NCBI GenBank assembly: GCA_033065855.1 | Contig: JAVXUO010002007.1 | Location: forward strand, 124,001 to 188,000 | Reading direction: 5' to 3' | From: Escallonia rubra | Taxonomy: Eukaryota > Streptophyta > Magnoliopsida > Escalloniales > Escalloniaceae | DNA length: 64,000 nucleotides | Shown here: positions 9,569 through 64,000 of the stretch, piece by piece | How positions within the stretch are numbered: position 1 is the first letter of the stretch | How the letters are laid out: each line of letters starts with the position of its first letter | Notes under the pieces: generated by a model | Database searches by the model: none | Told to the model about the DNA's origin: nothing | Seen by the model: only the letters and a program-made list of their open reading frames with translations | Position numbers and translations under genes: made by a program

Positions 9569-9613
9569 GTTGATTCTTGAAGTGGATGCGTACATTAGCT
9601 CATTAGATCCATC

Positions 9614-20109: not shown

Positions 20110-20224
20110 TATGCCCCCTGCTTTTACCAGCTTTAATGAGGCGGGTGGAAGCACACTTTTTCCACTGGGGATAGCGGAATACGCCAAAAACAGAATTGAA
20201 TACGTTTGTCAATATTTCCAAATT

Positions 20225-21255: not shown

Positions 21256-21568
21256 CGGGCGAGATTCTGCTCGGGAATAACTTTTGGTGTTTCCAATGTG
21301 TCACGTGCGAGGATTTGAGCGGGAATCCTTTTGAAAATTTTCAAGCTTCTGCTCTCTTCAGCTTGTGACACGTTGCAGGTACATGAACCGTTGTGTTTCC
21401 CAAGAAACGGTTATTTGGCGTTTCTCTATAAAAGGGAACTTCCACTTCATTTTTCCTCCATTCGAAATTTGGGAGCTCATTACTCTGCAAGTAAGTCTTT
21501 CCCTCTACCCTTCCTGTTCAGCACTTCAAGTTTGTTGTAGTCTCATATTTGCAGTAGAAGTAGAAAAC

Positions 21569-24645: not shown

Positions 24646-24836
24646 CTTCTATTACAACAATACTGAGAAAGAATAACTTTATTAATAGAGTAGAAAATAA
24701 AGTTTACATTGGATTGCTTAACAACCCATTTATTCGAAACAATCTGCTTAAGATTATTTTTAAGACGTTGGAGTTCTGATAAGGTCTGTGCCCCTTATCC
24801 CCCAAAAAAGGAAGTGTTTTGGCTCCTGCCGAGACA

Positions 24837-27800: not shown

Positions 27801-30389
27801 AATCTTCTCCTGTCTCTCTGGTGCAAAAGTCCTTTTCTTCTGCTTGACCGATTTTTTGGACGGATCAACATTCAGCCTATGGGTGATGACCTCAGGATCA
27901 ATTCCAGGCATGTCTGCGGCTGTCCATGCAAAAATATCCGCATAGGTTCTTAATAGGTTCACCAGCTCAAGTTTGGTGTCTTCCTTAAGATTTGATCCTA
28001 TCCGAACCGTCTTGCTTTCTTCCCCGGGATAAACTTCAATGCTGATAAGATCTTCAACTGGTTCTCCCCTTTGTATCCTTGTATCTTCCCGGAGGTCGTC
28101 TATAATGAGTGCTTCCTTGCTTTTTGATCGGCATGAAGTCACGTAGCACTGGCGAGCTGTAGTTTGGTCGCCTTTCACCTCTCCAATCCCGTGTTCTGTG
28201 GGGAATTTCATTTTGAGGTGATAAGTTGACACTACAGCCTGAAACTGATTGAGCGCTGGTCGTCCCAATATTGCGTTGTATGCTGAGGGGACCTTTACCA
28301 CCACAAAATCAAGCATGAAGTTGGCTTGTGCCGGAGGTGTGCCAATCGCAACCGGGAGTGCGATAATACCTTCGACTGGAACTGGATGATTGGAGAATCC
28401 ATACAACGGTGTATCCATCTTTCGGAGACGGTCTGTTGGAATGTTCATCTTCTTGAATGCATCGTAAAATAAGACTTCCGCAGAACTTCCGTTATCGATC
28501 AGGACGCGTTTCATGTCGAAGTTCCCAGCCTTTATGGTGATGACTAATGGATCATCATGAGGAGTTTTTACGTCCTGCGAATCTTCATCAGAGAAGGTGA
28601 TCGTTGCTGCGGGTGTTGCCTTCTGCTTTTTACTTGGGGGTTGACTCGTTATGCACACTTCTCTGGCGTATGCTTTTCGAGCTTGTCCAGATGATCCTCC
28701 TGCTGCCAGCCCCCCAGATATAGTGTTGATTATACCTGCATTCTCTTCTCGATCTTCTCTTTCTTCCACGGCCGGGGGTGTCTGTTGTCGACCTTCCCTT
28801 GGAGCAACGAACTTTCTCAACTGACCACGCTTGATAAGGGCCTCAATTGCTGCTTTAAGCGACCCGCAGTTATCAGTTGCATGGCCATGATCTTTGTGGA
28901 AGTGACACCATAAATCTTTGTTCCTCTTATTTGGCCGGGATCTCATCTTATCTGGCCACTGGAGAGCTTGATTGTCCTTGATCTCGTGGAGAATCTGAGA
29001 TGGCTTGGTGTTAAGGGGTGTCAGATCTTTCGGAGCAAACGGGTCTTTGGGACGTCGTTCGTCCGGTTTAGATCGTTTTACTGATTTTCCTCCTTGGGGA
29101 GTTATTTCTCGAGTTCGTTTCTTCGTGTTTTCCTTTTCTTCTCCATGTCGCCCTCTGTGTGTTTCCAGGTATTCTTCAGCTTGAATATATTTGTTTGCCT
29201 TCTCAAGTAGGGCTCTCATATTGCCTGGTGGACTTTTGTTCACAGAGAAGGCAAACTTGGATGTCGGACGGAGAGCGCGGAGAAAGGCAGTGTATTTCAC
29301 AGACTCGTCTAGATTGTCAACCTCCAAAGTCGCTGCGTTGAATCGTCCAAGGAAACAAGCCAAAGATTCGTTTTTCTCCTGCACAATGTTAAGCAGGCTC
29401 GCCGAATTCTTTCTTCGGGAGCGACTACTTACAAAATGCTTTTGGAAGAGATCCGACAATTGGCTGAAAGAAAAGATTGATCTTGGTTTGAGAGATTTGA
29501 ACCACGCATGTGCAGCTTTTCTGAGAGTAGTGGGGAAGGCTCTACACATGACAGCATCCGAAACTTGGAGGAGTAACATGTTGGTTTCAAATTGATAAAC
29601 ATGTTCTCCAGGATCTCCCGTCCCGTCATAATGGTCGCACTGAGGCATTCGAAAGTTGGGCGGTAGCTTTGCTTTCTCAATAGTTTCGGATAACGGATAT
29701 CCAGATTCTTCCCTTGGGAGAGATCGTTCTGGAGAACGATATCTAGGTACTATCTTCCAGGAGTTTCGTTCTTGGGAACGAAACTCAGGCGTCGTCTTCC
29801 TGTGGACAGATCTTCGAGGAGTTTTAGCTTTCGCGGCTCGCCGGGGAGATGAGTTGGTACTGCCTTCGACTGATGGATCCCGTCGATAGCATGATCCGCT
29901 TCTGGTCATGTGACTTCCGCTCTTAACTCTGGGATCATAAGTTGGATCGGCCGTTGATTGATACTTGCGGCCGTAGCTTGATCTGGAGGTGAGACGAAGA
30001 CGGAGGTCGCTAGGATCAAGATGGGAATGATGAGTGGACTGTGGAGCCGCCACCCTGTCAAGCTTTTGTTGAAGAGTGTTTACAACATCCTTCAGTTCGT
30101 GGATTTCCTTGGTAAGGTTATCATGTGGTGTTTTGAATAGCTGACGGTTAAGGCGATGGCGAAGGTCACCGTTTTTCAGAGTAGACGTTGGAGATTTGTT
30201 TCTCCGAGGTCTAGTTTCTGATTCGGGAGTAGCAGATGTTACGTTGACGTAATTATCTTCGGAAGAACTGGTGCGACGACGACGCAGAGGGGTCGAGCGC
30301 TGATCATGAGAATGACCTGGTCGATGAGAGTCCTTAGTTCTCGCATGATGATTCTGTGAAGAGTCATCGGAAGAAGAGTGGTTAGCCAT
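24837..30389 (-). CDS. Gag-pol polyprotein of the Tat-lineage Ty3/gypsy element
   Basis: A single open frame of 1850 codons. Approximate order: basic Ser/Arg-rich start; coiled coil (about 95-115); Gag domain (about 245-375, with AHAWFKSLKPRSI); a Cys/His segment WCHFHKDHGHATDNC (about 495); aspartic protease with LIDNGSSAEVLFYDAF (about 635); reverse transcriptase with FMDAYSGYNQI, MPFGLKNAGATYQ and YVDDML (about 915-1005); first RNase H (about 1140-1230); second, archaeal-type RNase H starting LYVDGSSA (about 1280-1410); integrase with zinc finger (GQHLGGRTL ... CDKCQKF) and core with TIDYFTKWTEAESLA and HPQSNGQTENMN. The dual RNase H and DNGSSA protease motif support the Tat assignment. 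It looks whole. Confidence 0.93.
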   Translation of the reverse strand: MANHSSSDDSSQNHHARTKDSHRPGHSHDQRSTPLRRRRTSSSEDNYVNVTSATPESETRPRRNKSPTSTLKNGDLRHRLNRQLFKTPHDNLTKEIHELKDVVNTLQQKLDRVAAPQSTHHSHLDPSDLRLRLTSRSSYGRKYQSTADPTYDPRVKSGSHMTRSGSCYRRDPSVEGSTNSSPRRAAKAKTPRRSVHRKTTPEFRSQERNSWKIVPRYRSPERSLPREESGYPLSETIEKAKLPPNFRMPQCDHYDGTGDPGEHVYQFETNMLLLQVSDAVMCRAFPTTLRKAAHAWFKSLKPRSIFSFSQLSDLFQKHFVSSRSRRKNSASLLNIVQEKNESLACFLGRFNAATLEVDNLDESVKYTAFLRALRPTSKFAFSVNKSPPGNMRALLEKANKYIQAEEYLETHRGRHGEEKENTKKRTREITPQGGKSVKRSKPDERRPKDPFAPKDLTPLNTKPSQILHEIKDNQALQWPDKMRSRPNKRNKDLWCHFHKDHGHATDNCGSLKAAIEALIKRGQLRKFVAPREGRQQTPPAVEEREDREENAGIINTISGGLAAGGSSGQARKAYAREVCITSQPPSKKQKATPAATITFSDEDSQDVKTPHDDPLVITIKAGNFDMKRVLIDNGSSAEVLFYDAFKKMNIPTDRLRKMDTPLYGFSNHPVPVEGIIALPVAIGTPPAQANFMLDFVVVKVPSAYNAILGRPALNQFQAVVSTYHLKMKFPTEHGIGEVKGDQTTARQCYVTSCRSKSKEALIIDDLREDTRIQRGEPVEDLISIEVYPGEESKTVRIGSNLKEDTKLELVNLLRTYADIFAWTAADMPGIDPEVITHRLNVDPSKKSVKQKKRTFAPERQEKIEEEVDKLLTANFIEEVHYPDWIANVVMVPKSGDRWRICIDYTDLNKACPKDSYPLPRIDLLIDSTSGHELLSFMDAYSGYNQIMMHKDDVSKTSFITERGLYCYKVMPFGLKNAGATYQRLVNMIFRDLIGKNMEVYVDDMLVKSIKSEFHAKDLKETFDILRKYRMKLNPLKCAFGVASGKFLGFIVSQRGIEANPEKIKAIQSMTSPKTVKQVQELTGRVAALGRFMARSAERCLPFFKAIRKAKSFTWTDGCQESFEELKTYLSSPPLLSKPLSGEDLFLYLSVTDVAVSTVLIKEEDGVQKPIYYISKVLQDVETRYPKIDKIALALIISARRLRPYFQSHTIIVLTDQPLRKVLLSPEASGRLVNWSVELGEFDIQYKPRTAIKAQALADFIVECTLPEDPPQLVISEVPDPWNLYVDGSSAIGSSGAGIILISPEGFTIEYALRFGFQASNNEAEYEALLAGIRLAHALKVNSLSVHSDSQLVVNHVLGDYEARDDRMAQYLDLVKTSAVKFQNFTIRQIPRDQNTQADALSRLASIEEIDVRRPIYLEFLKDRSITSQANVEVIDQEPCWMDAITKYLSTGELPSTRHETRNLRVKAARYALVEGTLYKKSFSLPYLRCLRPSESLYALQEVHEGICGQHLGGRTLAQKILRQGYYWPTMQKDAIDFTRRCDKCQKFAPVSHTPVAPLASIVSPIPFAVWGMDLLGPFPMATGQRRFVIVTIDYFTKWTEAESLATITSAKCEEFFWKNVVCRFGIPRALIVDNGKQFDNNNFRTFCSNLSIDLRFTSVAHPQSNGQTENMNRSILQGLKKKLDEAKGAWVDELPKVLWAYRTTPHSVTGETPFLLCYGTEAMLPVEIGVPTIRALHFNELNNEDGLRANLDLVDEARAQAHARSVVIKQRVARYYNQRVRSKQFNEGDLVLRKLEVSDPKAATGKLSPNWEGPYRVIKVLKPGAYALGKLSGEPIPRTWNAENLRRYYQ

Positions 30390-35027: not shown

Positions 35028-36647
35028 TTAGTCCCCTTTCTTCTTTCGCCATAGCAAAACAGGAGGAATACTTTGCTCATTCCTGAAGAAATTACCAGGA
35101 TCCACCATGGTTTTCACTTTAACCAATCTGTTAAAATTGTTCTTGAAGTATTTAAAGCCCCAAATGCTTGCTTGTGCATAGCTTGTGTTGCCTTGGTTGT
35201 TCATTCCAACATCAAGATCTCTGTAGTTAATATAAGCAGCCCTTGGAAACTTGGAAACATAAGGAGCCATGTAACTGTAAAGCCTCCTTATCCAACTTAT
35301 ATGCCTTTCAGCTGCCACTTCCCCTTCTTCCTCCCAGTACACCAAATGCTGGATTTTGTACAAATTTCCAGCTCTGTGTGGAAAAGGAATTGCATATTCC
35401 GAAATCTCATCCATCTTTCCACCATATGGACTCAAAATCATGTATGCGGCCTCTGCCTCATCTTCGTAAAACATTTTCCATATGCCTTCAAGTCCGTTCT
35501 TCGATATGGGTTCCTTCACATAATCCGATTTAGCTTTGAAATAATGCCTAACAAGAGGAATCCTGTCCAACAAAACCTCGAGTGATTCTCCACGTGGGAA
35601 TTCTGCAAAATATAGGACAGATTCGATCCAACTCATTTCCGTACAATCTTCTTTTGCTAACCCCAGCTCCGGGAAGCTTTCTTGCATCAACGAAAGAAGC
35701 CTATCTCGTCCACCAAGAAACAAGGAGTTGAATGAAGCCTGTATTGTCTGCTCACCATCTCGCGTTGAGTTCACTCTCGTTATAATGATTCTGATGATTA
35801 AGTCTTCAGGAAATTTGCTGGCAACAGATTGCCATTTGTGAACAAGGTTGGTGGCATTTTGTTCCAAGGTTTTGTCGACGGCGAATACGGTCACAGTTTC
35901 TGGAACAGGAACCAACTTTATTTTCCATTCGAGAATGACTCCAAAACTAGCACCTCCACCTCCTCTGATTGCCCAAAAAAGGTCTTCTCCCATGGATTTT
36001 CTATCCAGAATTTCACCATTTACATTGACCAAGCGTGCATCAATGACATTATCAGCAGCAAGGCCATATTTTCTTAACATCACGCCATAACCTCCACCAC
36101 TGAAGTGTCCACCAACACCAACAGTAGGACAAAATCCGGCAGGAAAACCAAGAACTTTACTCTTTTCGGCAATCCGATAATAAAGTTCACCCATAGTGGA
36201 ACCGGATTGAACCCACGCCGTGCGAGTTTCAGTGTCCACAGTGATAGACTTAAAGTTGATCATGTCAAGTACGACAAATGGAAGCTCAGAAACATAGGAA
36301 AGACCCTCATAGTCGTGGCCACCACTTCGAACCCTAATCTGCATGCCGTGTGCTCTGGAACATTTTATAACAGTAGAAATTTGGGATTCATGCGATGGAG
36401 TAACAATCACAGTAGGTTTCGGGGTGTCGGATGACGTGAACCGAAGGTTTTGTATGGAGAACTGCAAGATAGGCAGATAAGAAGAGTTGTTTGGGGTATA
36501 AATGACTTGAGAGATGGAGGTGGAATTTTGAGAGTGGAGGGAAAGACATTGAAGAAAATCTTCATGGTTTTGAGCTGAGGCTGCCCATGAAGATGAAAAG
36601 AGAAGAACCAAAACAAATGAAAGCCCTGCAGTACTTTGGATTTTCAT
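35028..36647 (-). CDS. Berberine-bridge-enzyme-like FAD oxidase, copy C
   Basis: This is an intact, intronless, secreted BBE-like oxidase of 539 residues. The start at 36647 (MKIQST) is chosen over the upstream in-frame ATGs because those lie within about 10 to 25 bp of the TATA box (36685-36692), too close to be in the transcript. Features: signal peptide 1-25 (cleaved after AASA); disulphide pair Cys34 and Cys96; FAD-linking His111 in [12 protein letters not shown] and Cys173 in [12 protein letters not shown]; oxygen-gatekeeper Val176 and His181, which suggest an oxidase; FAD-fold motifs [17 protein letters not shown] and [14 protein letters not shown]-terminal BBE domain with [10 protein letters not shown] and [14 protein letters not shown]. 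It lacks the duplications that affect copies A and B before the flavin His (HGMQIRV), so it probably shows the ancestral state. Product, substrate and tissue are unknown. It acts in the apoplast or vacuole if the family pattern holds. Confidence 0.92.
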   Translation of the reverse strand: MKIQSTAGLSFVLVLLFSSSWAASAQNHEDFLQCLSLHSQNSTSISQVIYTPNNSSYLPILQFSIQNLRFTSSDTPKPTVIVTPSHESQISTVIKCSRAHGMQIRVRSGGHDYEGLSYVSELPFVVLDMINFKSITVDTETRTAWVQSGSTMGELYYRIAEKSKVLGFPAGFCPTVGVGGHFSGGGYGVMLRKYGLAADNVIDARLVNVNGEILDRKSMGEDLFWAIRGGGGASFGVILEWKIKLVPVPETVTVFAVDKTLEQNATNLVHKWQSVASKFPEDLIIRIIITRVNSTRDGEQTIQASFNSLFLGGRDRLLSLMQESFPELGLAKEDCTEMSWIESVLYFAEFPRGESLEVLLDRIPLVRHYFKAKSDYVKEPISKNGLEGIWKMFYEDEAEAAYMILSPYGGKMDEISEYAIPFPHRAGNLYKIQHLVYWEEEGEVAAERHISWIRRLYSYMAPYVSKFPRAAYINYRDLDVGMNNQGNTSYAQASIWGFKYFKNNFNRLVKVKTMVDPGNFFRNEQSIPPVLLWRKKKGD

Positions 36648-36684
36648 GTTAATTCGTGAAGTGGATGTGTTCATTAGCTCCATC

Positions 36685-36702
36685 ATTTATAGTGCATGCG
36701 TG
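36685..36702 (-). promoter_or_regulatory. TATA box and altered RY motif of BBE copy C
   Basis: CTATAAAT on the minus strand (36685-36692) has next to it CATGCGTG (36695-36702), the RY motif of copies A and B with one base changed. Confidence 0.55.
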
Positions 36703-45022: not shown

Positions 45023-47185
45023 ATGTCGATTTCGATCAACTCACCACCACCTGAGATTTTGATCAACTCACCATCACCTGAGATTTCTACTCTCACAACT
45101 CCCTCTCAGCCAACCCAAATCCAAGATGTCACAAACCCATCTCTGTCAGCTAATGCCAAACCCAAAAAGTTCACCATGTCAATTTTTCAAGATTGCTTCT
45201 CCTCAAATCCCCAAATGATGCAACCCAAGTCAGTCAACCCTAATATTGCCACTTCAATCTCCACTACCACCACTGCTGGCAGTACCCGTGATGAAAAGCT
45301 ATCAAATTTGGTACAACAAGATCTAAATGAGATCAAAGAAGCCTCAGACAAGCTCAAAATTTTCAAAGACCGCGTCGATGTACAAGCCAGTGAGGCCATA
45401 GCGGAATTCGAGAAAATAAAAGAGGTTGCAAGTGGAAGTGGAGGTAGTTCGGATGAGATCCGGGAATTAAAGAAGAAAGTCACCAAATTGAAGCTCCAAA
45501 TCACTTCGACCCGCAAGATTCCATCGCAAAAAAAGGACCCCCATCGGAATCCGCGGCCAGATGGAATTGGAAAGACCAAGAAAATTCTTGCGGACAAGGT
45601 GTTCGACGAAATGCCACAACTGTACAAGAATCCAACTTTTGAGAATAGTTTGGCATTTCAGGATTTTCAGACAAATTATAACAAGCTCAGTCCTGAATTG
45701 AAGCTTTGCTTGCTGTGTTTTGCGGTTTTTCCGGAGAATGTTATCATAAAGAAAAGGGTCATGGTGTATTGGTGGATAGGGGAGTGTTTCGTACCTCCTA
45801 GGGGAGCATTACAGGAAATTGCCAAAGGGAAGACACCAGAAGACTTTGCCAATGGGTTCTTTCACAATCTTATGGAAATGGGTTTCATTGAGCCTGTTGA
45901 CAAAAAAGGCAATCCAATAAAGGTTTCTTCCATGGTGGACAGTTGCAAAATGCACCCTTTTACTCGTTCCGCGGTGATTGCGCTTGCAGCTAGGGCTAAT
46001 TTCTTTGATTTTGATAATAGGGGGAACCCGACTGAGGAGTTTGCTAATTCTTTTAGGGCATGCTTAGCAGGTAAGGGACTAATAAACCTTCAAAACTTGG
46101 ATAAGCTGCACATGCTGTTTAATGTGAATGAGGCTATTCTTGAATTTAGACAGGAATGGTTTCTGAAGATGAAAAATGTTAATGTTCTTTATTTGGGAAG
46201 GTGGCAGACCGCGGCCACTCATCACATTGAAGTTGAGGATGCCAAATTTCTAAGTGGACTGGAGAATATGAATCATTTGAGGTTCTTTAGTCTCCAAGGG
46301 GTGTCTAGAGTTACTGAACTTCCAGATTCCATCTCGCAACTAACGAGTTTGATGATCTTGGATCTGAGAGCATGTCACAATCTTGAGGTGATTCCTGAAG
46401 GAATTGGCTTGCTCAAGAACTTGACACACTTGGACATGTCTGAGTGTTACTTGATAGATAATATGCCGAAGGGTCTTGCATTTCTATCGGCACTAGAAGT
46501 CCTAAAAGGGTTCATAGTAGGAGATTTTAATAGTAAAAGCTCGTGTACTCTCGATGATTTGGCAAAATTGCCGAGGCTGAGAAAGTTGAGCATCTACACA
46601 GGGGTGACGGACTTTCCTAGAGACCTGCAATTGACAGCTTTAAAGCGATTTCAAGAGCTTCGCAAACTAACAATAGTTTGGGGTACAGGAAATAGCGGCC
46701 AAGATAAAAGTGCGGGACAACCAGCTACTCCACCTGCCAAGAAACCACATGTCCCTGGTGCCCTTATGAGAGCTGTGGCCTTCAATCAAGGAATTGCGGC
46801 ACAATCTGTAGTTCCCTTGCTTCCTTCTTGGCAACTAGAAAAATTGGATCTTCAATGTTTTCCTGAAAAGTTTGCTCCTGATTGGCTGAAGCCTAGGAAT
46901 CTGGGGAGCCTCAAGAAACTCTACGTTAGAGGAGGGAAGCTATGTGATCTCGGTCAGTTTATGGAATTCGATGACGGCGGTACAAACTCTATGCCGAAAA
47001 AGGATACTTGGGTCGTGGAAACCTTGTGTCTGAAGTACTTGACGGAATTAGAAATTGATTGGAGCGAATTACAGCGCTTGAGTCCAAAATTGATGTACTT
47101 GAAGAAAGTCGAATGTCCAAAGCTGACATTCTTCCCTTGCGACGAGAGTGGAGTATGGGATATCAAGGTAGCTGCGAGGAAATAA
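45023..47185 (+). CDS. NLR-derived LRR protein without NB-ARC core, copy C (full length)
   Basis: An intronless 720-residue protein of the RPP13-like-4 type, the most complete of the three module copies. In order: Pro/Ser/Thr-rich N-terminus, with a 9-residue near-duplication (INSPPPEILINSPSPE) not found in copy B; coiled coil (about 95-160); a P-loop-like stub GIGKTKKILADKVF (181-194); a winged-helix-like segment (about 215-300: LKLCLLCFAVFPENVIIKK, YWWIGECF); an MHD-like KMHPFTRSAVIALA; and LRRs from about 385 to the end (ELPDSISQLTSLMILDL, LPRLRKLSIY, LEKLDLQC, LTELEIDW). The kinase-2, RNBS-B and GLPL motifs of NB-ARC are missing, so it should not bind ATP by itself. Related Arabidopsis proteins are the At5g45510-like LRR proteins (from memory). 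It may act with a separate CC-NB protein such as 56148-57413; that is inference. Confidence 0.85.
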   Translation: MSISINSPPPEILINSPSPEISTLTTPSQPTQIQDVTNPSLSANAKPKKFTMSIFQDCFSSNPQMMQPKSVNPNIATSISTTTTAGSTRDEKLSNLVQQDLNEIKEASDKLKIFKDRVDVQASEAIAEFEKIKEVASGSGGSSDEIRELKKKVTKLKLQITSTRKIPSQKKDPHRNPRPDGIGKTKKILADKVFDEMPQLYKNPTFENSLAFQDFQTNYNKLSPELKLCLLCFAVFPENVIIKKRVMVYWWIGECFVPPRGALQEIAKGKTPEDFANGFFHNLMEMGFIEPVDKKGNPIKVSSMVDSCKMHPFTRSAVIALAARANFFDFDNRGNPTEEFANSFRACLAGKGLINLQNLDKLHMLFNVNEAILEFRQEWFLKMKNVNVLYLGRWQTAATHHIEVEDAKFLSGLENMNHLRFFSLQGVSRVTELPDSISQLTSLMILDLRACHNLEVIPEGIGLLKNLTHLDMSECYLIDNMPKGLAFLSALEVLKGFIVGDFNSKSSCTLDDLAKLPRLRKLSIYTGVTDFPRDLQLTALKRFQELRKLTIVWGTGNSGQDKSAGQPATPPAKKPHVPGALMRAVAFNQGIAAQSVVPLLPSWQLEKLDLQCFPEKFAPDWLKPRNLGSLKKLYVRGGKLCDLGQFMEFDDGGTNSMPKKDTWVVETLCLKYLTELEIDWSELQRLSPKLMYLKKVECPKLTFFPCDESGVWDIKVAARK

Positions 47186-48398
47186 CATCATCCGTTCAAG
47201 TGGTGTTTTCTTCTAAGTAGCCTACGTGAACAACAGTCCGTCTTTCATGTTTAGGTATATTCTTTTATTTCTGTATCTTAGTTTCTTGTTTATGTGAATA
47301 GTGGATGTTCTGAGTCGGTAAGTTGTTATTTTGTTGATCAATACCACGGGGAAATTTTGTAGGCCAACTCTAACATTCATTTCGTGCAAAATATGTCCTT
47401 GATAAAAAGATAACCTGTGGATTGAGTGGTGGATTTAATGGAAAGAACGCAAGAAGGGTATTTCTTTTCTATCCTTTGAGAAATTTTAGTAAACCCAGAG
47501 CTGTGTGTAGGACGGATAAGGTAGAGAGGCTGTTAGGAAACGTCTGTAGAATGCAATCCTGGCTTCAGCTCAGCAGGCTCTGGTTCATAAGTTCATTCCT
47601 TATCCTGAGGTTTCGATAGTAGAACCTTGTCAGTGTCATTCTTGAGTACTGTCCTATGTTGAAATGAGTGTTCTTTCTTGTAACACAGAAAAAAAATTAA
47701 ACCTTTCAATAACTATACTCAGAGTTTCAGCGGATGCAGACTACCTTTCAATCATGTTGCATTGAAATCATTCACGTTTTCCTGAGAGGCAGATTGTGGT
47801 CACATCATTCCACAGTATGCCCAGGAACTCTTTCAGTACTTTTTACCGTAGGATACCTTTGGGCTTTGACATCATTTCCAAATGACTATAGAAGCAAAAT
47901 CGAGGTGATTGTTTGGAAGCTTATCATTTCCTGGCTATTGAAAAGTTATTCTCTGACCCCCTTGTGCTTTCATTTGGTTTGTCTTTAGAGCATCTAATTA
48001 ATGTGAAACTATAGTTTTTCCTGTCATAGGAGAACCATAAGGTAATGGCAGTTGAACTTGTTTGGAAATGAAGAGTTGCAAATACTTGAGGACTTGAAAA
48101 TGGCTTCACTTCGAATGCCCAGGAAGTTTTCTTAATTCTGTTGTTACACCTCTATCACATACCTGGATGCTACTAAAACAGCAGACAATGGTTTCCGCTT
48201 GACCTAAAATATGTGTCTACTAAATGCATTGGTCTCTTTTTATTAATGCAGATTCAGTTATGTTGGCATCTGTGGGTTTTCTTTAATAGAGAGTGAATTC
48301 AGTTGACAAAATATCGATCACCCTTCACAATTGTTGCGGTACTTATGGGGTATGTTGTTTATGCTGAGAGCTGCTTCCCTAACCTTGTGGGTCATTCA
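47186..48398. other. 3' flank of LRR copy C
   Basis: No gene is identified. 47186-47400 is probably the 3' UTR. The rest is moderately AT-rich single-copy sequence. A 60-codon frame runs across the hAT insertion point (48340-48398 and on from 54540) but matches nothing I recognise. Confidence 0.45.
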
Positions 48399-49165
48399 CA
48401 GAGATGTCAATGGGCCGGGCTTGGGCTGGCCTAGCCCAGGCCCATCGGGCCTCCAACGAAAACGGGCCGGGGCCGGGCCTGAAGAAGGAAACCGGGCCGG
48501 GCCTGAAATCTGGGATATTTGGGCCCTGTCCAAGCCCTAGGCCCAATATTTAGGGCCGGGCTTGGGCCGAGTCCGGGCCCAATTTTTTTTTCCTGTTCTT
48601 AACTCCTTCTTATTCACATTTATAAATTAAATGGTTGGAGACTTAGAGGAACATCACAAGCCTCAATCGCCAACTGAAACTAGTGTAAGAGGTTCCCCAC
48701 TGACGTTGTAGTACGGTTCCCGTTATAGATGCTTAACTGAAAATCACTTCAAATGCTTTGTCATTATAATTGAAATTTATGATGATAGCCATTTATCGCT
48801 AAAATGCAACAACACTCGTTTATTGACACATAAATATTATTCAGCAGCGGATCTGATGTCTCTTAAAACTGGTATCAGTGTAATGACTGAAAATCTGTCT
48901 CGCAAATTAACCAAAGTAAAGCAGTGTCGCACAGTCAGAAGAGTAAATTCATATACTGAATTTGGTGCAACAGCTTAATACTGATAAAATCCGAAAAAGT
49001 TGGGATAACATGTACACTACTTATATGACTTCTCCGGACAAGCGTATATATGCATCATAACAAAATCAATCTGCAACTGTTTCTGCACTTCCCAAAGCTG
49101 GAGAGTGAGTGTGTGTATGTGTGTAAACTGTAAAGTGACGATGGATGCTAAAGCAAGAATCATAG

Positions 49166-52100
49166 AGTAAAAGGAGAAGTATTGCTGGAATCTCACTTTC
49201 TTAAGTGAGTGATCTTCTCTATTTATATAATTACAAACCATTTGAATTTACAGATATGATGATAATCCTATCTAAAGTAGTTACAATCTGAAGTTTAAAC
49301 AAAGGGAATTTAAGTTCAAAATACAAACTTATGATGAAGAGATAAGTGGATAAGCTGGGCTTCATATCACCATCAAATGGTCTCTAATAGGCCCCCTCAA
49401 GCTAAAGGTAAGCGGCAGCGAACCTGAAGCTTGTCACGAAGAGTAATGAAGCGGTCAGAGGAAAGTGGTTTGGTGAAGATGTCAGCAACTTGGGCGTGTG
49501 TTGGAAGAAAGCGAATGCGAAGAAGGTTTTGAGAGACTTGGTCACGAACAAAATGAAAATCAACCTCAATGTGTTTGGTTCGAGCATGAAAGATGGGGTT
49601 GGCAGACAAGTAGGTGGCTCCGATGTTGTCACACCAAAGTGTAGGAGGTTTGGGTAGAGAAACGCCAAGTTCATGAAGAAGAGAACGAAGCCAAATGAGT
49701 TCGATGGTGGCATTTGCAACAGCACGATATTCAGACTCTGTGGATGAACGAGCAACAGTGGGTTGCTTTTTGGCAGACCATGAGATAAGATTAGGGCCAA
49801 GATAGATGGCATAACCCCCGGTTGATCGGCGATCATCAATATTACCCGCCCAGTCTGCATCACTGAAGGCATGCAGGGAAGAAATGGGAGATTTTTGGAA
49901 GAGTAGGCCATGAGAAATGGTGGCTTTTAAGTAACGTAAAATTCGCTTGACGGCAGTCCAATGAGCATCAGTAGGATGTTGCATGAATTGTGCCAGTTTA
50001 TTAATGGCAAAGGACAAGTCAGGGCGAGTGAATGTGAGGTATTGTAGGGAGCCAATGATTTGGCGGTAGTGAGTAGGGTCAGGAAGAGGGTGGCCAGAGG
50101 TTTTGGAGAGTTTAGGGGATGAAGCAATAGGAGTAGGTAGGGGTTTGGCATTGATCATGGAAGTTTTCTGTAAGAGATCAAGAATGTAACGTCGTTGGGA
50201 AAGTATAAGGCCAGCGGAGGTGTAACTAATTTCAATGCCAAGAAAGTAGCTTAGAGGTCCAAGGTGGCGAATGTCAAATTCGCGACGAAGGCAAGATAAG
50301 AGAGTAGTAATTAGGGACGAAGAGCTACCCGTTAATATGATGTCATCCACATAAACGAGTAAGTAAAGGGTGTGACTGTTGCGATGAAGGATAAAAAGAC
50401 TGGGGTCAGTTTGAGAGGGGCTAAAGCCAAAGCGGACTAAAAAATCAGAGAGGCGTGTGAACCAAGCCCGAGGGGCTTGCTTGAGACCGTACAGTGATTT
50501 GTGTAATTTGCAAACATGAGAAGGGGACGACGAATCAAGGAAACCAGGGGGTTGGGCCATGTATACCTCTTCAGAGAGATGACCATGAAGAAAGGCGTTG
50601 GAGACGTCTAGTTGGTGAAGTGGCCAAGAATGAGAAAGAGCGAGAGAAAGTAGAACACGAACAGTTGTTGGCTTGACAACGGGACTGAAGGTAGCAGTGT
50701 AGTCGACACCTTCCTGGTGATGAAAACCTTTGGCGACAAGTCGAGCTTTGTAACGTTCCAAGGAACCATCAGATTTTCGTTTGATCCGAAAAACCCACTT
50801 ACAACCAATCACATTCATGGAAGGATGGAATGGTACAAGGGACCATGTTTGGTTTTTAGCAAGGGTAGTGAGCTCATCTTGCATGGCAGTGCGCCAATGG
50901 GAAGTTTTGTTGGCTTGGGTAAAATTGGTGGGTTCAACTTCTGAGGAAACAGAGGAAAGTAGAGCTTGGGGAAGGGGGTGTTTGGTAGAGAGAGAGGCAG
51001 ACTTAGGAAGCTTTCGTTTGGGATGTGGGCGAAGAGACATGAGGTGGGTGCGAATGGGAGCTGGATGTTGAGTTGAGGTAGACGAAGCATGAGGCAATTT
51101 GGAAGGTTGGGGGATGTGATTAGGACGTGTGACATTAGGGTGAGTAGAAGGAGGTGAGGATTGAAAAGGTGCGGTGGAAGTAGCAGAGTTGGGATGGGGC
51201 GAAGTGGGTGTATCGGTGGAGGTGGCGGGTGAGGAAGAGTGATGGTGAGAAGAGTTGGTGTTGAAGAAGGGAGCTTGTGAAGGAGATAAAGACATACCTG
51301 ATAAGACGCCACCAGAAGGAGTACTTGAAGGGGTCCAACGAACTGCAGGTAACTCCGCAAATGAGGGGGAATAAGATTGTGCAGGAGGAGGAGGAGAAGA
51401 TTGTGAAAATGGAAAAAAATCTTCATTAAAACGAACATGACGTGCAATATAAATGCGACCAGTGGCTTTGTCTAGGCAGCGATAAGCATGATGATTAGGA
51501 CTATAGCCTAGAAAGACACAAGGTGTGGAACGGAAGTTGAACTTGCGAGAATGATATGGGCGTAGAAGCGGAAAACATGAGCAACCAAAAACGCGAAGAA
51601 AGGAGTAGTTAGGTGGCCGACTAAAAAGTTTTTCATATGGGGACAAGCCATTTAGGACAGGCGTAGGAAGACGATTAATGAGGTAAATTGCCGTTTCAAA
51701 TGCATAATCCCAATATTTGAATGGTATTGACGAATGAGCAAGAAGAGAAAGACCAGTGTCAACTACATGTCGAATTTTACGTTCGGCATGACCGTTTTGT
51801 TCGTGAGTGTGTGGGCAAGCAATGCGTTGGAGAATACCTTCAGAAGCAAGAAGCGGAGTTAATTTTCGAAATTCTCCACCCCAATCAAACTGAATGGCCT
51901 TCAAGTGAACATTATACTGACGAAACGCAAGGGCTTGAAACTGAGTAACTATAAAGCACACTTGAGATTTACGCATTAACGGAAAGTACCATGAGAATTT
52001 CGTAAAATCATCAACCATAATGAGAAAAAATTTATGTCCATTAACTGAAGGTAGAGCAGGGCCCCAAACATCCATGAAAACTAATTCCAAGGGTTGCTTA

Positions 52101-53922
52101 CTGACAAAGGAAGAGGAGGAGAGAGGAAACTTAGACATTTTTCCTAGACAACAAGAACTGCAGAAAGTAAAATTTGAAGACGAACATGGCAAGTTATTTT
52201 TATGAAGGACTTGACGAACGCCTTTGGAGTGAAGGTGACCAAGTCTGTGATGCCATTGATCGAGAGATGTGCGTTCACCGATATGAGCACGAGGAGAGTG
52301 AAGTGAGTGCAGTCGATAGAGCCCCTGATCAAGCGTTCCGGTGAGAAGCGGCGTCTTGGTGTCCTTGTCCTTCACAATAAAAGAAAACGGATGAAATTCA
52401 AAAAAGCAGTTATTGTCTTTTGTGAATTGATGCACTGAGAGAAGATTTTTGGTAATGGTAGGAACATGTAAGACATTTGATAAATGAAAGGAAGAGGTGG
52501 GAGTTTGAAATTTAGTGGAACCAATGTGGGTAATTGGAAGTCCGTTACCGTCACCAACACGAAGTTGATCAGTGCCCTTGTATTCATCTGAGACATGAAG
52601 TTGTTGCAGGCTGTTTGTGATGTGGTGAGTAGCCCCCGTATCAGGGAACCAAGACTCAGGAATTGAAGCATGATCACCAGAGGAATAGGTTGCGATATGA
52701 GCAGATGGATCAGAATTGCGAGAACTCTGATAACGGTATTGACAGCGGTTGGCATAATGACCGAATTGCCTGCAAATTTGACAGCGAGCTCCAACAGAAT
52801 GTCCACCAGAATTTCCAGAGTTGGAGCGAGACCGATTAGAGTGATAATTTGATGAAGACCCGCGACCGTTACTGTTGTTGGAGTAGCGGTTGAAAGATTG
52901 AGAATGCTGATTGCGCTGTGGAGGAGGAGAATAGGTGACGTGTGGATGTGAATTGGCAGAAGAAGAAGAACGGTGTGCAATTTGTGCCGAAGGCAGTTGA
53001 ATGGATGGTTGCATGGCACGCAGACGTATCTCCTCACTAGTAAGAAAGCTGAGAAGTTCTGGATAAGACACCGGAGTGAGCCGAGACGAGAGAGCAGCAA
53101 CAGCTGGGTAAAAGTCACTGCCAAGATTATTGAAAATGATGGCGTTGAATTCAGCAGGTGAAAGTAGTTTTCCAGTGGCACCCAATTGGTCAGCAAGATA
53201 TTTCATCTCCTGGAGGTAAGTGGCGACGGGTTTATCGTCGCGTTTGGTATTGTGAAATTGCATTAAAAGTTGGAGCACGTGGGTATCAGAAGCAGGACCA
53301 AAGGCTTGGGAGAGGGCAGCCCATGCAGATGCAGCAGTGTTATGGCCAACAACGACAGGGAGGACAGCTTCAGAGAGAGAAATGTTGATCCAACTGAGGA
53401 CGTATTGATCACGATCAAGCCATTGTTTGTAGGCTGGATTAGGGGTCTTGACATTGGAGCCATCAATGATAATTTCCGCGGGAGGACACGGTTCAGTGCC
53501 GTCGACGAGGCCGAGAAGATTGTTTGAACGAAGAATAGGCATGAGTTGTGTTTGCCAAAGAAGATAGTTACTGGTGGTAAGTTTAATAGTGGTGAAGTGC
53601 TGGAGGTTGGGGATGGCGGTGGAATTGTTGACAGCGGAGGAGGAAGCCATTTTGGAGGAAGAAAAAAAAAAGGAACTAACCGTAGGCTCTAGATACCATG
53701 TAAAAGGAGAAGTATTGCTGGAATCTCACTTTGTTAAGTGAGTGATCTTCTCTATTTATATAATTACAAACCATTTGAATTTACAGATATGATGATAATC
53801 CTATCTAAAGTAGTTACAATCTGAAGTTTAAACAAAGGGAATTTAAGTTCAAAATACAAACTTATGATGAAGAGATAAGTGGATAAGCTGGGCTTCATAT
53901 CACCATCAAATGGTCTCTAATA
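49166..53922 (-). mobile_element. Ty1/copia LTR retrotransposon, looks whole and young
   Basis: The 224-bp LTRs at 49166-49389 and 53699-53922 differ at only about three positions by eye. The element reads on the minus strand. Next to the upstream LTR is a primer-binding site complementary to initiator tRNA-Met (TGGTATCTAGAGCC, 53685-53698), and a purine tract (ttgagggggcc) precedes the downstream LTR. One long gag-pol frame is open. Flanking 5-mers (catag, aacgg) do not match, so no target duplication is evident. It is inserted in the hAT element. Confidence 0.9.
49397..53650 (-). CDS. Gag-pol polyprotein of the Ty1/copia element
   Basis: A single frame of 1417 codons. Approximate order: Gag (1-250, [16 protein letters not shown] and [12 protein letters not shown]); a Ser/Asn-rich linker; a CCHC knuckle [14 protein letters not shown] (about 292); aspartic protease [13 protein letters not shown] (about 337); GAG-pre-integrase [12 protein letters not shown] (about 470); integrase core [13 protein letters not shown] and FDWGGEF (about 530-690); a Ser/Pro-rich linker; reverse transcriptase with WKVFRIKRK-like [24 protein letters not shown] and YVDDIILTG (about 950-1190); RNase H with [19 protein letters not shown] and [12 protein letters not shown]. 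The order integrase before reverse transcriptase marks it as copia. It looks whole. Confidence 0.92.
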
Positions 53923-54539
53923 AACGGGGAATAAAGCATGAAGCCACATGCACAATAAACGAACCATCTTGTCTATCAACTTTTGCATAAAGCAGAAGCT
54001 AAGCCCACTTATCCATGCACAGCATTCATCCTCTTCAACCCCCCAAGTGCCAAAGCCTTTTAGACTTTTCAAACACAAATCCACATTTTATAAACCCTAG
54101 TTACACCACAAATCTTCCTACTTTATTCTTTTCAAGATGGCTACTGAGACACATTGAATTAAAGCTAAACTAAAGTAACAGAAAACAGAAAAGCTCTTCA
54201 TATTAGATAATCTCTTTAATCAAAAGTTTCGAACACAACCTAACCCAACCCCACAGAGAACTGCTCTATAAGAAGGCAAGAACAAGAAGCTGATGAGTAC
54301 TCTCTATATCCATTCCACCAAAAACCCACATCTGAAAAAGAAAAAAAGGGAAAAGGGCCAATTTCGGGCCGGGCTTTTTTAGGGCCAGGCCATTTTTCCT
54401 GACACTTTGGCCTGGTCCAAGGCCCTATTCCTTCGGGCCTGCACTGTTCATAAAAGGGCCGGGTCAGCTCTGACTTTTTTAGGGCCGAGTCGGGCTGGGC
54501 CGCGGGCTGCCGGGCCCGTTTAACATCTCTAGTCATTCA

Positions 54540-56147
54540 TGACCCTGATGTTCTTGTCTTTGAGCTTCTGTTTTATTCAGTCGATGATAAAGAGATGTCA
54601 AAGACAATTAAATTGAAGGTCTTGTGGAGGAAGATGCCAGAATCAGGGGTCCCATGATAGCAATCAGCAAATACACTGGAAGGCTGCAACCTGGTCCTAG
54701 GACAGGTCATGTACCTGAATTTATTCAAATAAAAAAGTTAAAGGGCAAAGGTAAAGATGATGCTACCTTAAAACTTTTCCACAAGGAAAACAAAAGGAGC
54801 CAATGGTGTCATCTTAAAGAAAGTGAGCTAATAGTAATAATGTAATAAATTACCAGCAGTAGTTCCTCCTTTTCAAAATACTACTGCTGTTTAGTACAGA
54901 ACTCAGTAAGATACATGCAAGTGGAAGTGGATCTAACTGGTCTTACTTTGCTGCCGCCTGCTAAGGAATCTATCCTTTTTCATGTGCTACTCAACACTCA
55001 CCTCCCCCTCTTTCTGTACTTTAATCCTTTATTTATTTTTTGATTAAGAGAAAAAATATATTATATATAAAAAAATTTACAAATCGGATCAGATCAACTA
55101 TTTTACAAACATAAAAGACAGCATTAATTGCTATCAATAACACTACACATTAACAAGTAACCTACATACCTGATACAAATTACAATTAGATTGAAGCAGA
55201 GCATATCTTACACTTTAGCCTAACTTTTCGTAACTTGTCGAGGCGTACGGTTACAATTTAACACCAATTACAGCAAAACACATAAAAAATACAACACATT
55301 TTACAGCTTCGTCCTCTACTTAGATACATAACTTAAAACTTACTACTCATGGTAAAGTTCAAAAAGTAAAAAAAAAGGGAAAAGATAAAACAGAATCTGC
55401 GAGACATATTGTTGTCCGAAGTGATTTGCCACTCAAAGAGTGAAAAGAAATTTGAAGCATATCATAAGCAAATACCAAAATCCAATTCCAAGTAATATCA
55501 TTAAGCTGGAACTAAGAAATTGTGTCAGATAAGGTCCGTGCATTTGCCAGTGTTGGGGCGGTGTGTGGCGGTGTCGGTGGGTGGGGCTTGGGGAATGGCA
55601 GCGGGAGAAATTGGTAGGCCAAAGAAGAAGTGAAAAGTAGAATAAGAGACAAAAGAGAGAGAGAGAGAGAGAGAAAATCAAACCCAATTTTAACGCAGAC
55701 AGTTTTGTTTCCAAAGTCAAGGATTTGGACAGAAGTACTTACTAATGACAAATTAAAACATCACGTGGTAAAATTGAAAAGATGGCTCCTCTAGTGAAAT
55801 TTCCATGTAGTTTCAGGGTACTTGGTGCATTTAACCCATCTTCAATACTTAGAGACTTCACCGGCTAAGGAATCTATCTTTTTTCATGTCCTCCTCAAAA
55901 CCCACCTCCCCCTCTTTATGTACTCTAATCCTCTAATTAGTACATAACTTAAAATTTTACTACTCATAGCAAAGTTCAAAAAGTGAAAAAGGGAAAAGAA
56001 AAAACAGAATCTGTGAGATATACTGTTGTGTGAAGTGATTTGCCACTCAAAACATTAAGAGAAATTTGAAGCAATATCAGAAGGAAAGACAAAAATCCAA
56101 TTCCAAGGGATATCATTAAGCTAGAACACAGAAATCATGTCAATTTC
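54540..56147. other. Spacer with a direct repeat 3' of the CC-NB-ARC gene
   Basis: No gene is supported. A segment at about 54955-55545 is repeated at about 55862-56147 ('ctaaggaatctatc.ttttt', 'gtgatttgccactcaaa', 'ccaattccaag..atatcatt'), so the 3' flank of the CC-NB-ARC gene has been duplicated. The left copy carries an extra 300-bp AT-rich block (55020-55315). Between the copies is a GA microsatellite (55653-55674). Confidence 0.6.
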
Positions 56148-57413
56148 CTAACAAGTAGGCTGCTGCATTCCATTCTGAGTATTCACGCTTGCTCGAAGAT
56201 TTTTATTCATAATGTCACCCAACATTTTTGCAGCCAATGGAAGCCCACCACACTTGTTCACAATGTCATCTTTCAATGTTTCCAGGCCTGCAGGGAGCTC
56301 TGTTCCTTCTTTCTGAACTGAGTCCTTGAAAATCAGCCAAATCACCTCGTCAGAAAGTGGCACAAGTTTTTGCAAATTCTCCTCGCCCACCATTTTCTTT
56401 CCCATTTCCTCATCCCTGCTGGTCACAATTACAGTTCCACCACACCCTTTTGGCAACCCAGATCCTATCTGCTCTCCCATTTCCTCTTCATAAGACAACC
56501 CAGATTCCAAAGTCTCGTGAAAATTACTCACATCATCCAGGATAATCAAATACTTCTTACCTACTAATTGCATTCGAAGCGCAAAGATCAGACCTTTGAG
56601 ACCGTGTTTTCCGTCAACACTCGCGATAATCTCGTCTTCTACCCCAACGCACATCAACATTCTCTTCACTAATTCTTTCTTCTGGTCACCGTCTTCATTG
56701 GGTCGCTTTGACATACAAACCCAAATCCTGGGAAGAAAAGATTCCTTCACTTTAGAGTTACAGAAAATCATTTGTGAAAGCGCTGTTTTCCCAATACCAG
56801 CCATGCCTACAAACGCAATTGCCTTAAATCCATAATCCCTTTCTCGGAGAACAAGCAGCCTCTCGAGGGACAGCAACTTGTCACCAAGCCCATGAACCTT
56901 TTCTGGATCTACGTGACGAGTGCTCCACCTGTAAGTTTCTACTTTTTGTAGCAAGCTTGCTCCGTCGGTGACTGGCGTACTAGCAACTGGAACTGGAGCT
57001 AGAATTGGAACTGGAGCTGGAACTGGAGCTGGAGCTGGAACTGGAGCTGGAGCTGGAACTGGAGCTGGAACTTCTTTGAACACCCCTTCTTTCAGCTCCC
57101 GTTCGACTTTTTTCAGTTTCCTACTGAGTTTGTACGCAAAGAGCACTGTCTCGGGAGAGATTGAACTTTGCTTCTTCGATACCATCTGCCATTCTGTTAA
57201 TAAATTGCTGAGGCAATAGAGCTTCTCCCTGCGTACTTTTGATACTTCTGCAGGTGGGGAATTGGTTGGTTTACTTTCTAGCACCTCCTTGAGCCGTGAA
57301 AACTGCAAGTGCAGTGGAGCCAATTTTGCTACGAGAAACTTTTCAGATGACTCTATGTCCTTGATGGCATCACTGAGTTTGTCCAGTAGATACTGTTCAA
57401 TCTCCTCTGCCAT
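56148..57413 (-). CDS. CC-NB-ARC protein lacking winged helix and LRRs
   Basis: A 421-residue intronless protein. Residues 1-115 are helical and coiled-coil-like (MAEEIEQYLLDKLSDAI ... YKLSRKLKKVERELKEG). Residues 124-152 are a Pro-Ala-Val repeat (APVPAPAPVP). From about 170 comes an NB-ARC core: P-loop GMAGIGKTALS (213-223), RNBS-A-like PRIWVCMSK, kinase-2 KKYLIILDDV (about 300), RNBS-B GGTVIVTSRDEEMG, and GLPL motif CGGLPLAAKMLG (about 390). The protein stops 25 residues later, with no winged helix, MHD motif or LRR. All the nucleotide-binding motifs look intact, so it should bind ATP/ADP. The length fits a known group of short RPP13-like proteins (At5g45490-like, from memory), so it is probably complete and not truncated. 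It converges with the LRR genes on its left, which hold what it lacks. Confidence 0.88.
   Translation of the reverse strand: MAEEIEQYLLDKLSDAIKDIESSEKFLVAKLAPLHLQFSRLKEVLESKPTNSPPAEVSKVRREKLYCLSNLLTEWQMVSKKQSSISPETVLFAYKLSRKLKKVERELKEGVFKEVPAPVPAPAPVPAPAPVPAPVPILAPVPVASTPVTDGASLLQKVETYRWSTRHVDPEKVHGLGDKLLSLERLLVLRERDYGFKAIAFVGMAGIGKTALSQMIFCNSKVKESFLPRIWVCMSKRPNEDGDQKKELVKRMLMCVGVEDEIIASVDGKHGLKGLIFALRMQLVGKKYLIILDDVSNFHETLESGLSYEEEMGEQIGSGLPKGCGGTVIVTSRDEEMGKKMVGEENLQKLVPLSDEVIWLIFKDSVQKEGTELPAGLETLKDDIVNKCGGLPLAAKMLGDIMNKNLRASVNTQNGMQQPTC
56988..57075. repeat. 12-bp minisatellite coding the Pro-Ala linker
   Basis: About seven copies of ggaactggagct and its 6-bp variant ggagct lie in frame in the CC-NB-ARC gene. 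Unit lengths of 6 and 12 keep the frame, so the linker length can vary without harm. Confidence 0.85.
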
Positions 57414-62568: not shown

Positions 62569-64000
62569 CTACTTGCCGACTATCATCTTCATCTTTCCTA
62601 AGGAAACTTGTTCATGGTACTGCTTTCCTAAGCCCAGATGAGTCATCATGAGCCAGATGAACGTAAGGAGTTCGCCACCTCTACTCGGTTGTTCTGCATG
62701 AACCGTAGGTCTGCAATTAATTGCAGCATAGGACATCAATTCCACCCACACCTTGCACATCAGCTTCCACCGGCTTTGCTCCAGTTCTAAGAGCTGTTTA
62801 GCCAGGATACAAGCATCGAACAACACGGACTTGCTCTTACCTCCCTTGACTGCAGTAGATCTTCCGATCGTATTCACTAAAAGGAGCTTCTCGCAGGCAT
62901 TCAAATCATGCAATACGTCTGATTTGCGGAAGAATCTTTTGGTCTCTGCGCAGCTGTCCTGGAATACCAATTGCCAATTGCCTGCAACAGGCGCCAGCAT
63001 GGTAGGCTTCATGACCAGAAGATAAAAGATGTAATTCGAAAGGAGCTTACATAGTTCTCTATCAGTAACATCTTCATCAGATTCGCTGTCTCTGTAGTAA
63101 CACAGACTAGAGGCAATGTGCCATAGTAGGAGGCTCTCCGCGTACTGAAAATGTTCAATGCTCCAACTCATTTCACCATGACCAGATTCCTTCAAGAAAG
63201 CCCCAGCTCTCCCCTGTGAGCACAACATCTCGCCGGCTTTCACGTCCTCAGCACCCTTAGATTTTTCCTTCAGTTCTTCAAAAATGAATTCTAGTACGTA
63301 ATCCTCGATTTTCCTGGAGGACCATGACATCGCCATGACTAGATTGTCAACAAAATCGCCGATGCCCAACGAAACTAGGAAATGCTCAAGCCTAATGGAA
63401 CGACAACTTAGACAATAGTGTATAAAACTGCCCTGGGACACGGATCCTGACCACCTCTTTCTCTTCATAACAAAAGCAGCAACCAATTCGCCCCACCTAT
63501 TCTTAAGGGAAATGACCGTCCAGTCGGAAAAAATAAGCCTAATGAAAGACACAACATCAAGTATTATGGCCCCAATGAGCAACAAGTAAGTTATGGAATC
63601 ATCACTCTTTCGGTGCTCATGTTCCTTCATCAAAGTGAAGAACAAAAATGCTACTAGCTCTGAGGTAAAGCTCATGACACGGAACAAATACCCCAGCCTA
63701 CAACGTGTGACGGCCAGCTTGGTGTGGAGAACCTCGTACATGAAGCTTAGCTCGAACTCAATCAGTTTAAATGCGTCCTGTGCATTCCTCTTGAGAAAGA
63801 AATCTCGGCTCACTTCTCTTTCCCTGGAGCTAAAAATGTGACCAACGATTAGTCCCTTAAAGGTGTCGAAGATTCCATAAGCAGTTTGTAGTAATAGCCT
63901 CTCATCCATGACCACAGACTCGCTGACTGAATATTTAGACCCCCATAATCTTCTCTTTGGTTCAGGCACTATCTCGACACGTATGGGAAGGTTCCCCTTC
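62569..64000 (-). CDS. DUF4220/DUF594 membrane protein, N-terminus beyond the window
   Basis: The frame is open to the window edge and reads GNLPIRVEIVPEPKRR before SKYSVSESVV, so the start lies outside. About 477 C-terminal residues are visible; the family is usually 600-750. The visible part has the end of DUF4220, with two or three hydrophobic segments (VMSFTSELVAFLFFTL, YLLLIGAIILDVVSFIRLIF), then a soluble stretch including a helix EDYVLEFIFEELKEKSK, then DUF594: KLLSNYIFYLLVMKPTMLAP and, near the end, WVELMSYAA, CRPTVHAEQPSRGGELLTF and WLMMTHLGLG. The family is plant-specific, multipass and of unknown biochemical role. No breaks are seen in the visible part. Confidence 0.88.
   Translation of the reverse strand, partial: KGNLPIRVEIVPEPKRRLWGSKYSVSESVVMDERLLLQTAYGIFDTFKGLIVGHIFSSREREVSRDFFLKRNAQDAFKLIEFELSFMYEVLHTKLAVTRCRLGYLFRVMSFTSELVAFLFFTLMKEHEHRKSDDSITYLLLIGAIILDVVSFIRLIFSDWTVISLKNRWGELVAAFVMKRKRWSGSVSQGSFIHYCLSCRSIRLEHFLVSLGIGDFVDNLVMAMSWSSRKIEDYVLEFIFEELKEKSKGAEDVKAGEMLCSQGRAGAFLKESGHGEMSWSIEHFQYAESLLLWHIASSLCYYRDSESDEDVTDRELCKLLSNYIFYLLVMKPTMLAPVAGNWQLVFQDSCAETKRFFRKSDVLHDLNACEKLLLVNTIGRSTAVKGGKSKSVLFDACILAKQLLELEQSRWKLMCKVWVELMSYAAINCRPTVHAEQPSRGGELLTFIWLMMTHLGLGKQYHEQVSLGKMKMIVGK

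Follow-up and report, generated by a model that had tools for sequence, protein, structure and literature searches.

In a stretch of 64,000 nucleotides from Escallonia rubra (contig JAVXUO010002007.1; this whole stretch is the window analyzed here, and all positions refer to it), two neighboring genes together resemble one plant receptor of the nucleotide-binding leucine-rich-repeat (NLR) kind. The one, here named CN, encodes an N-terminal helical region and a nucleotide-binding (NB) core, and the other, here named LRR2, encodes a winged-helix domain (WHD) followed by leucine-rich repeats (LRRs). Judged by alignment, both genes are of the type of ZAR1, a single-chain, MADA-type coiled-coil (CC) NLR that forms a resistosome, and they divide that protein cleanly between them. 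We read the locus as two linked ZAR1-type fragments that complement each other. Singly the genes are of known kinds, and it is the pair as a unit that makes a new variant. The best single mechanism suggested by these sequences, held at somewhat less than even confidence, is that the CN and LRR proteins act in trans as one receptor.

Three long NLR-related open reading frames (ORFs), all intact, are found in the window alongside berberine-bridge-enzyme-like genes and transposons, and the DNA looks like nuclear plant DNA. These ORFs are LRR1 (14999-16840, plus strand), LRR2 (45023-47185, plus strand) and CN (56148-57413, minus strand). The ORFs of LRR2 and CN are convergent, with 8,962 bp between them, in agreement with the original prediction, which had placed the two genes 9 kb apart in convergent orientation.

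The CN protein (421 amino acids) is composed, in order, of the N-terminal helical region, a proline/alanine-rich linker and an NB-ARC core (residues 194-404, Pfam E 1.6e-28), and has neither a winged helix nor LRRs. In the core, the pattern search located the P-loop GMAGIGKT (residues 203-210, 56784-56807), the kinase-2 motif LIILDDV (residues 289-295, 56529-56549), RNBS-B as VIVTSR (residues 328-333, 56415-56432) and GLPL as CGGLPLA (residues 388-394, 56232-56252), all on the minus strand, and the protein ends 27 residues past GLPL. The same search found neither FPE[DN] (RNBS-D) nor MHD/MHP in CN. Intact NB-ARC motifs, an early stop after GLPL and no remnant behind it place the gene in the class of CC-NB proteins that have no LRR, exactly the core ending after GLPL which had been predicted. 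The N-terminal residues 1-131 gave no match at E up to 10 among solved structures, and the canonical CC domain Rx_N is not among their Pfam matches. A low-confidence model suggests four helices there (2-21, 29-46, 54-80 and 87-111; pLDDT of the block 52-64), and beyond this hint the AlphaFold2 model of CN, with a mean predicted local distance difference test score (pLDDT) of 42.9, is unusable. The first 21 residues were compared in register with the MADA consensus MADAxVSFxVxKLxxLLxxEx, which has 13 fixed positions. Residues 9, 13 and 17 of CN are hydrophobic, and the same positions of the MADA helix are essential in NRC4 (PMC6944444). A proline-alanine-valine repeat, VPAPAPVPAP (residues 116-147, 56973-57068, minus strand), separates the N-terminal helices from the NB-ARC and seems unusual as an NLR linker.

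The 3′ end of CN looks natural rather than cut. Past its stop, on the CN strand, phmmer with stretches of ZAR1, alignment and reading of the flanks revealed no WHD or LRR sequence. The stretch following the stop is itself repeated (55312-56142, minus strand, by sequence alignment), its copies at 55929-56142 and 55312-55527 being ~85% identical, and no resumption of coding sequence was seen beyond them. Since this post-stop stretch was duplicated ~400 bp further on, we infer that the present end of CN is older than the duplication. Truncation of CN by a small transposon was considered and rejected, as the apparent terminal repeats, which are these two copies, suggest a duplicated 3′ flank.

The LRR2 protein (720 amino acids) consists of an N-terminal extension with no known domain, a winged helix (residues 235-311 by Pfam, with FPEN, that is, RNBS-D, at its start; 45725-45955, plus strand) and LRRs reaching a C-terminus of ZAR1 type, and it has no NB core. 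In its terminal LRRs (residues 597-710, 46811-47152, plus strand), only ZAR1 is significant among the solved structures. LRR1 is a paralog of LRR2 with 93.9% DNA identity over an alignment of 1,792 columns, and it lacks the last 139 residues of LRR2. A third copy (7473-7635, plus strand), seen by alignment and six-frame search, is a 5′-end fragment with stop codons. The original prediction described the ORFs at 14999 and 45023 as genes with a winged helix and LRRs, lacking kinase-2, RNBS-B and GLPL. The WH_DRP profile scored above its cut-off of 27 bits in both (29.9 in LRR1 and 33.9 in LRR2), the LRRs were recognized by Pfam, and in neither gene was an NB-ARC match found by Pfam at E up to 1 or any of the three motifs by the pattern search. 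The description holds for both as genes devoid of an NB core and has to be amended for the copy at 14999, from which the last repeats are missing. Residues 1-206 of LRR2 had no Pfam match at E up to 10 and eight weak matches among solved structures, the best being a designed miniprotein (E 0.00042). The supposed coiled-coil region of the LRR proteins appears helical in a low-confidence model, and the AlphaFold2 model of LRR2 (from residue 88, with LRR1 as an added row) had a mean pLDDT of 33.0 and is unusable. NCBIfam gave only matches far under its cut-offs. In bacterial, archaeal and viral contig collections, 47 and 4 pattern matches for LRR2, and 16 and 5 for CN, led to no confirmed relative.

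The two halves were compared with a set of about ten NLRs of solved structure. The predicted RPP13-like type agrees with the outcome: of the solved structures, RPP13-like protein 4, also named ZAR1, is closest to each half. For CN, ZAR1 scored 87.5 bits over its residues 147-369 (NRC1 41.5 and Sr35 ~37). For LRR2, it scored 124.6 bits over residues 392-717 and 733-838, followed by 7crb_A (labeled NAD+ hydrolase, matching in the LRR stretch only) with 62.4 and MLA13 with 59.8. The respective values for LRR1 were 89.4 bits and, for the next structure, 62.3. The winged-helix part alone gave 42.6 bits with ZAR1 and 28.0 with Sr35, the next one, and the last 171 residues of LRR2 alone matched ZAR1 at E 6.3e-10 and the next structure at 0.24. 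Among the solved structures, ZAR1 is the closest for the NB, the WHD and the terminal LRRs, each tested separately. In ZAR1 coordinates, CN covers about 147-369 and LRR2 392-838, with no overlap and a gap of ~20 residues.

This complementarity extends to the whole window. Four stretches of ZAR1 (147-369, 392-505, 576-717 and 733-838; residues 1-146 were not used) and one Sr35 winged helix were searched with phmmer --max against 1,984 six-frame stretches of at least 20 residues. The NB query matched the CN gene only, the WHD and LRR queries matched the LRR genes only, and the 733-838 query matched LRR2 only, with two remaining rows at E 0.43 and 0.94. No full-length NLR was found in the window by this search; NB-ARC is present in CN only and the WHD with LRRs in the LRR genes only, and not on a single chain as in a CC-NLR (CNL). 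H597 and W825 of ZAR1, two residues that presumably contact the pseudokinase RKS1, correspond in the alignment to S428 and E697 of LRR2; with these two positions changed, LRR2 is not simply a ZAR1 ortholog.

A P-loop stub had also been predicted in the LRR genes, and this part of the prediction fails. Alignment scores of LRR2 residues 1-204 and LRR1 residues 1-195 were set against 2000 shuffles. With the P-loop region of ZAR1, 128 (LRR2) and 371 (LRR1) shuffles scored as high, and with the window's own CN, 916 and 658 did so. The GIGKT/GFGKT stub was not accepted as proving that the LRR genes derive from a complete NLR, all four comparisons being near the shuffle level. Apart from the stub, the earlier observation is real and sharper than first stated.

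Selection was estimated from the single LRR1-LRR2 pair, with LRR1 truncated and the regions chosen by us, as the ratio of non-synonymous to synonymous rates (dN/dS). Over the 343 codons of the WHD+LRR part, 19 differences are synonymous and 12 non-synonymous (dN/dS 0.16), against 6 and 17 over the 196 codons of the N-terminal part (dN/dS 0.81); the two parts differ by Fisher's test (p 0.014). In detail, the values are 0.84 for the N-terminal region (1-90), 1.31 for the helical region (91-165), 0.55 for the stub (166-205) and 0.11 for the LRRs (346-548; 16 synonymous, 7 non-synonymous). This supports purifying selection on the WHD and LRR part jointly between the two copies. The low ratio in the LRR part argues that it has been kept for function since the duplication, and the higher ratio of the N-terminal part argues that the extension, including the supposed P-loop stub, has been kept less strictly.

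A comparable cluster in Arabidopsis was named in the original prediction, with At5g45440 and At5g45490 as CC-NB genes next to the LRR genes At5g45510 and At5g45520. The sources cited below bear out At5g45490 as a nucleotide-binding-site (NBS) or CN gene and At5g45510 as an LRR gene devoid of NB-ARC; At5g45520 is presumably an LRR gene as well. In an expression study, At5g45490 is given as CN and At5g45510 as a divergent NB-LRR (NL) gene, and the two belong to a set of 15 genes whose expression rose significantly with salicylic acid at 4 h (PMC2175511). If 162 genes were assayed, the probability of both named genes being among the 15 is 0.008. At5g45490 is listed as NBS only, with 1,394 bp and counterparts in Brassica oleracea and B. 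rapa (PMC4008172), where the entry 1 in the last table column is taken as one exon, and it is classed as CNL in another table (PMC8116057). At5g45510 is recorded with LRR present and NB-ARC absent (PMC5093994). In B. oleracea, the listed counterparts are Bo2g127270 and Bo2g127290 for At5g45490 and Bo2g127320 for At5g45510 (PMC7795555); the three locus numbers are near-consecutive. One classification assigns At5g45440, At5g45490 and At4g19060 to CNL Group C, which is also the group of ZAR1 (PMC6312357). The window genes are probably orthologous to At5g45490 and At5g45510. The passages of PMC2175511 and PMC7795555 that name At5g45510 with At5g45490 or At5g45440 do not propose a split receptor, and no natural split NLR was found among the matches listed in the open-access literature searched. 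As a separate observation, the locus numbers of At4g19060, recorded with NB only, and At4g19050, recorded as NBS-LRR, are consecutive, and so are those of Bra013373 and Bra013372 (PMC8116057, PMC4008172); the Arabidopsis genes are possibly a second linked pair of the CN/LRR kind.

In ZAR1, the winged helix and the LRRs keep the NB-HD1 module ADP-bound, and, to our knowledge, plant NLRs of known structure carry the switch and its lid on one chain. In the trans-acting pair, the ZAR1-type CC-NLR lineage would be present at the locus as two pieces. The CN protein would be the part that binds and exchanges ADP and ATP, and it could execute the response through its weakly MADA-like first helix. LRR2 would be the winged-helix and LRR part, responsible in ZAR1 for locking the switch and for sensing; it may dock in trans on CN or its oligomer, thereby keeping CN off, and on sensing it would release or re-position CN. 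The anatomy, the complementarity, the linkage in this window and the constraint on the WHD+LRR part are seen directly, whereas nucleotide binding, docking, autoinhibition and signaling are inferred for the pair; a lid acting in trans would be the most economical reading. If true, the WHD-LRR chain is the lid of a two-gene receptor and the CN chain its switch. A more specific form of this mechanism, which we consider possible though rather unlikely, is a naturally split resistosome: an ancient ZAR1-type gene would have undergone fission between GLPL and the winged helix, the halves would have stayed linked across eudicots, and the WHD-LRR protein, as a removable lid, would govern in trans how CN exchanges nucleotide and assembles. 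Parts of Rx and Mi-1.2 were reportedly expressed as separate chains. The CC/NB and LRR domains of Rx, as well as the CC-NB and LRR domains of Mi-1.2, are described as interacting (PMC3478704). As cited, the published trans experiments with NLR parts go in both directions.

Several points weigh against a trans-acting pair. Autoactive Rx and Mi-1.2 are quoted as active in cis and not in trans, and the CC-NB-ARC and LRR parts of maize Rp1-D21, when expressed apart, gave no response, with LRR expression being low (both in PMC4342346). A cladogram of the CC-NB-ARC region groups At5g45440, At5g45490 and At4g19060 with Group A, which its authors ascribe to ambiguous alignment (PMC6312357). Co-induction of neighboring genes, such as the Arabidopsis pair, can result from shared chromatin without joint function. 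In the window itself, the CN N-terminus MAEEIEQYLLDKLSDAIKDIE is identical to the MADA consensus at 4 of the 13 fixed positions, a modest likeness equaled by 238 of 20,000 shuffles. In both LRR copies, the aspartate of the MHD motif is replaced by proline and the histidine is kept (MHP; in LRR2 residues 310-312, 45950-45958, plus strand, by pattern search and alignment); in ZAR1 this histidine touches the nucleotide. The N-terminal extension of the LRR proteins, ~200 residues long, occupies the place at which an NB part would be attached. The signal of constraint comes mostly from the LRRs, and the WHD (206-345; 3 synonymous, 5 non-synonymous, dN/dS 0.40) shows little constraint alone. Finally, there is one CN in the window beside one whole and two broken LRR genes. 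Since the LRR gene is duplicated and CN single, their copy numbers are uncoupled, and on this point independent modulators fit somewhat better.

Such independent modulators are almost as likely as the trans-acting pair. CN and LRR2 would then be two independently truncated NLRs from an old tandem cluster with inherited linkage, the WHD-LRR protein being a modulator or decoy in competition for the partners of some full-length ZAR1-type NLR, much as NRG1C may act toward NRG1A/B, and CN working alone or with other NLRs. The dN/dS of 0.11 in the LRR part is as expected with fixed partners, and a precedent exists in NRG1C, which lacks the CC and most of the NB-ARC and antagonizes its full-length neighbors (PMC10561179, PMC9851556). 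On the other hand, this explanation has no full-length NLR in the window to work on and leaves the complementarity and common ZAR1 type of the linked fragments unexplained, and the changes to S428 and E697 at the two presumed contact positions do not indicate competition for the same pseudokinases. Complementarity of type and boundary fits a split receptor better, and the trans-acting pair is slightly favored.

The pieces could also be relics of a broken-up full-length ZAR1-like NLR, decaying and with no present role. The loss of 139 residues from LRR1, the third copy with its stops and a region rich in repeats and transposons would be in line with decay. It is nevertheless improbable, given that the ORFs of LRR2 and CN are long and intact, that the NB motifs are intact, that the WHD+LRR part has a dN/dS of 0.16 and that similar Arabidopsis genes are expressed (PMC2175511). 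Least probable is a single gene misread as two, or else a full NLR interrupted by an intron, a transposon or an assembly error. A Copia element and repeats do lie between the genes, which speaks for it; CN and LRR2, however, are encoded on opposite strands. The searches of the window revealed neither WHD or LRR sequence following CN on its strand nor any NB sequence elsewhere, and the structure lacking the NB core is common to two LRR copies.

The Copia retrotransposon between LRR2 and CN (49167-53922, minus strand, by ORF and long-terminal-repeat comparison) makes up 4.76 kb of the interval, which would be ~4.2 kb when the element is subtracted. Its long terminal repeats (49167-49389 and 53700-53922) differ at one of 223 bases (222/223 identical), therefore the insertion is recent. 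Beyond CN lies a DUF4220/DUF594 gene (62569-63969, minus strand; Pfam E 2.2e-41 and 9.6e-21), whose 5′ part may continue beyond the window end. DUF594 genes are probably present around At5g45490 and At5g45510 in Arabidopsis; on this basis the gene may belong to an old linked block and is a possible synteny anchor. Three berberine-bridge-enzyme-like genes (3778-5109, 7943-9595 and 35028-36686, minus strand) share 88.6-90.6% DNA identity, and to the right of each lies an LRR gene or a fragment of it (at 7473, 14999 and 45023); these units are probably part of a bigger duplicated block. Minisatellite-like arrays (20133-21368 and 23931-24779), in which several frames contain long ORFs, adjoin a Gypsy-type polyprotein ORF (24837-30389).

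Among known systems, the Arabidopsis cluster of At5g45440/At5g45490 and At5g45510/At5g45520 is like the window in having CN genes and NB-less LRR genes, with orthology being probable; the cited passages on it do not describe a split-receptor function. ZAR1 is the closest solved relative of both halves. It is one protein, whereas in the window the NB and the WHD-LRR belong to two genes, known here from their sequence. Unlike ZAR1, the window has MHP in place of MHD, differs at the positions of H597 and W825, and carries no recognized Rx_N. NRG1C is, like the window's LRR protein, an NB-less LRR protein of NLR origin adjoining NB-bearing genes (PMC10561179, PMC9851556); it is, however, a CCR helper NLR beside full-length paralogs, whereas the neighbor in the window is a ZAR1-type CN lacking LRRs. 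The parts of Rp1-D21 did not function in trans (PMC4342346), and for the CC-NB and LRR parts of Rx, Bs2 and Mi-1.2 domain interactions were shown with laboratory constructs (PMC3478704). Those splits are artificial, whereas the split in the window is natural and falls after GLPL and before the winged helix.

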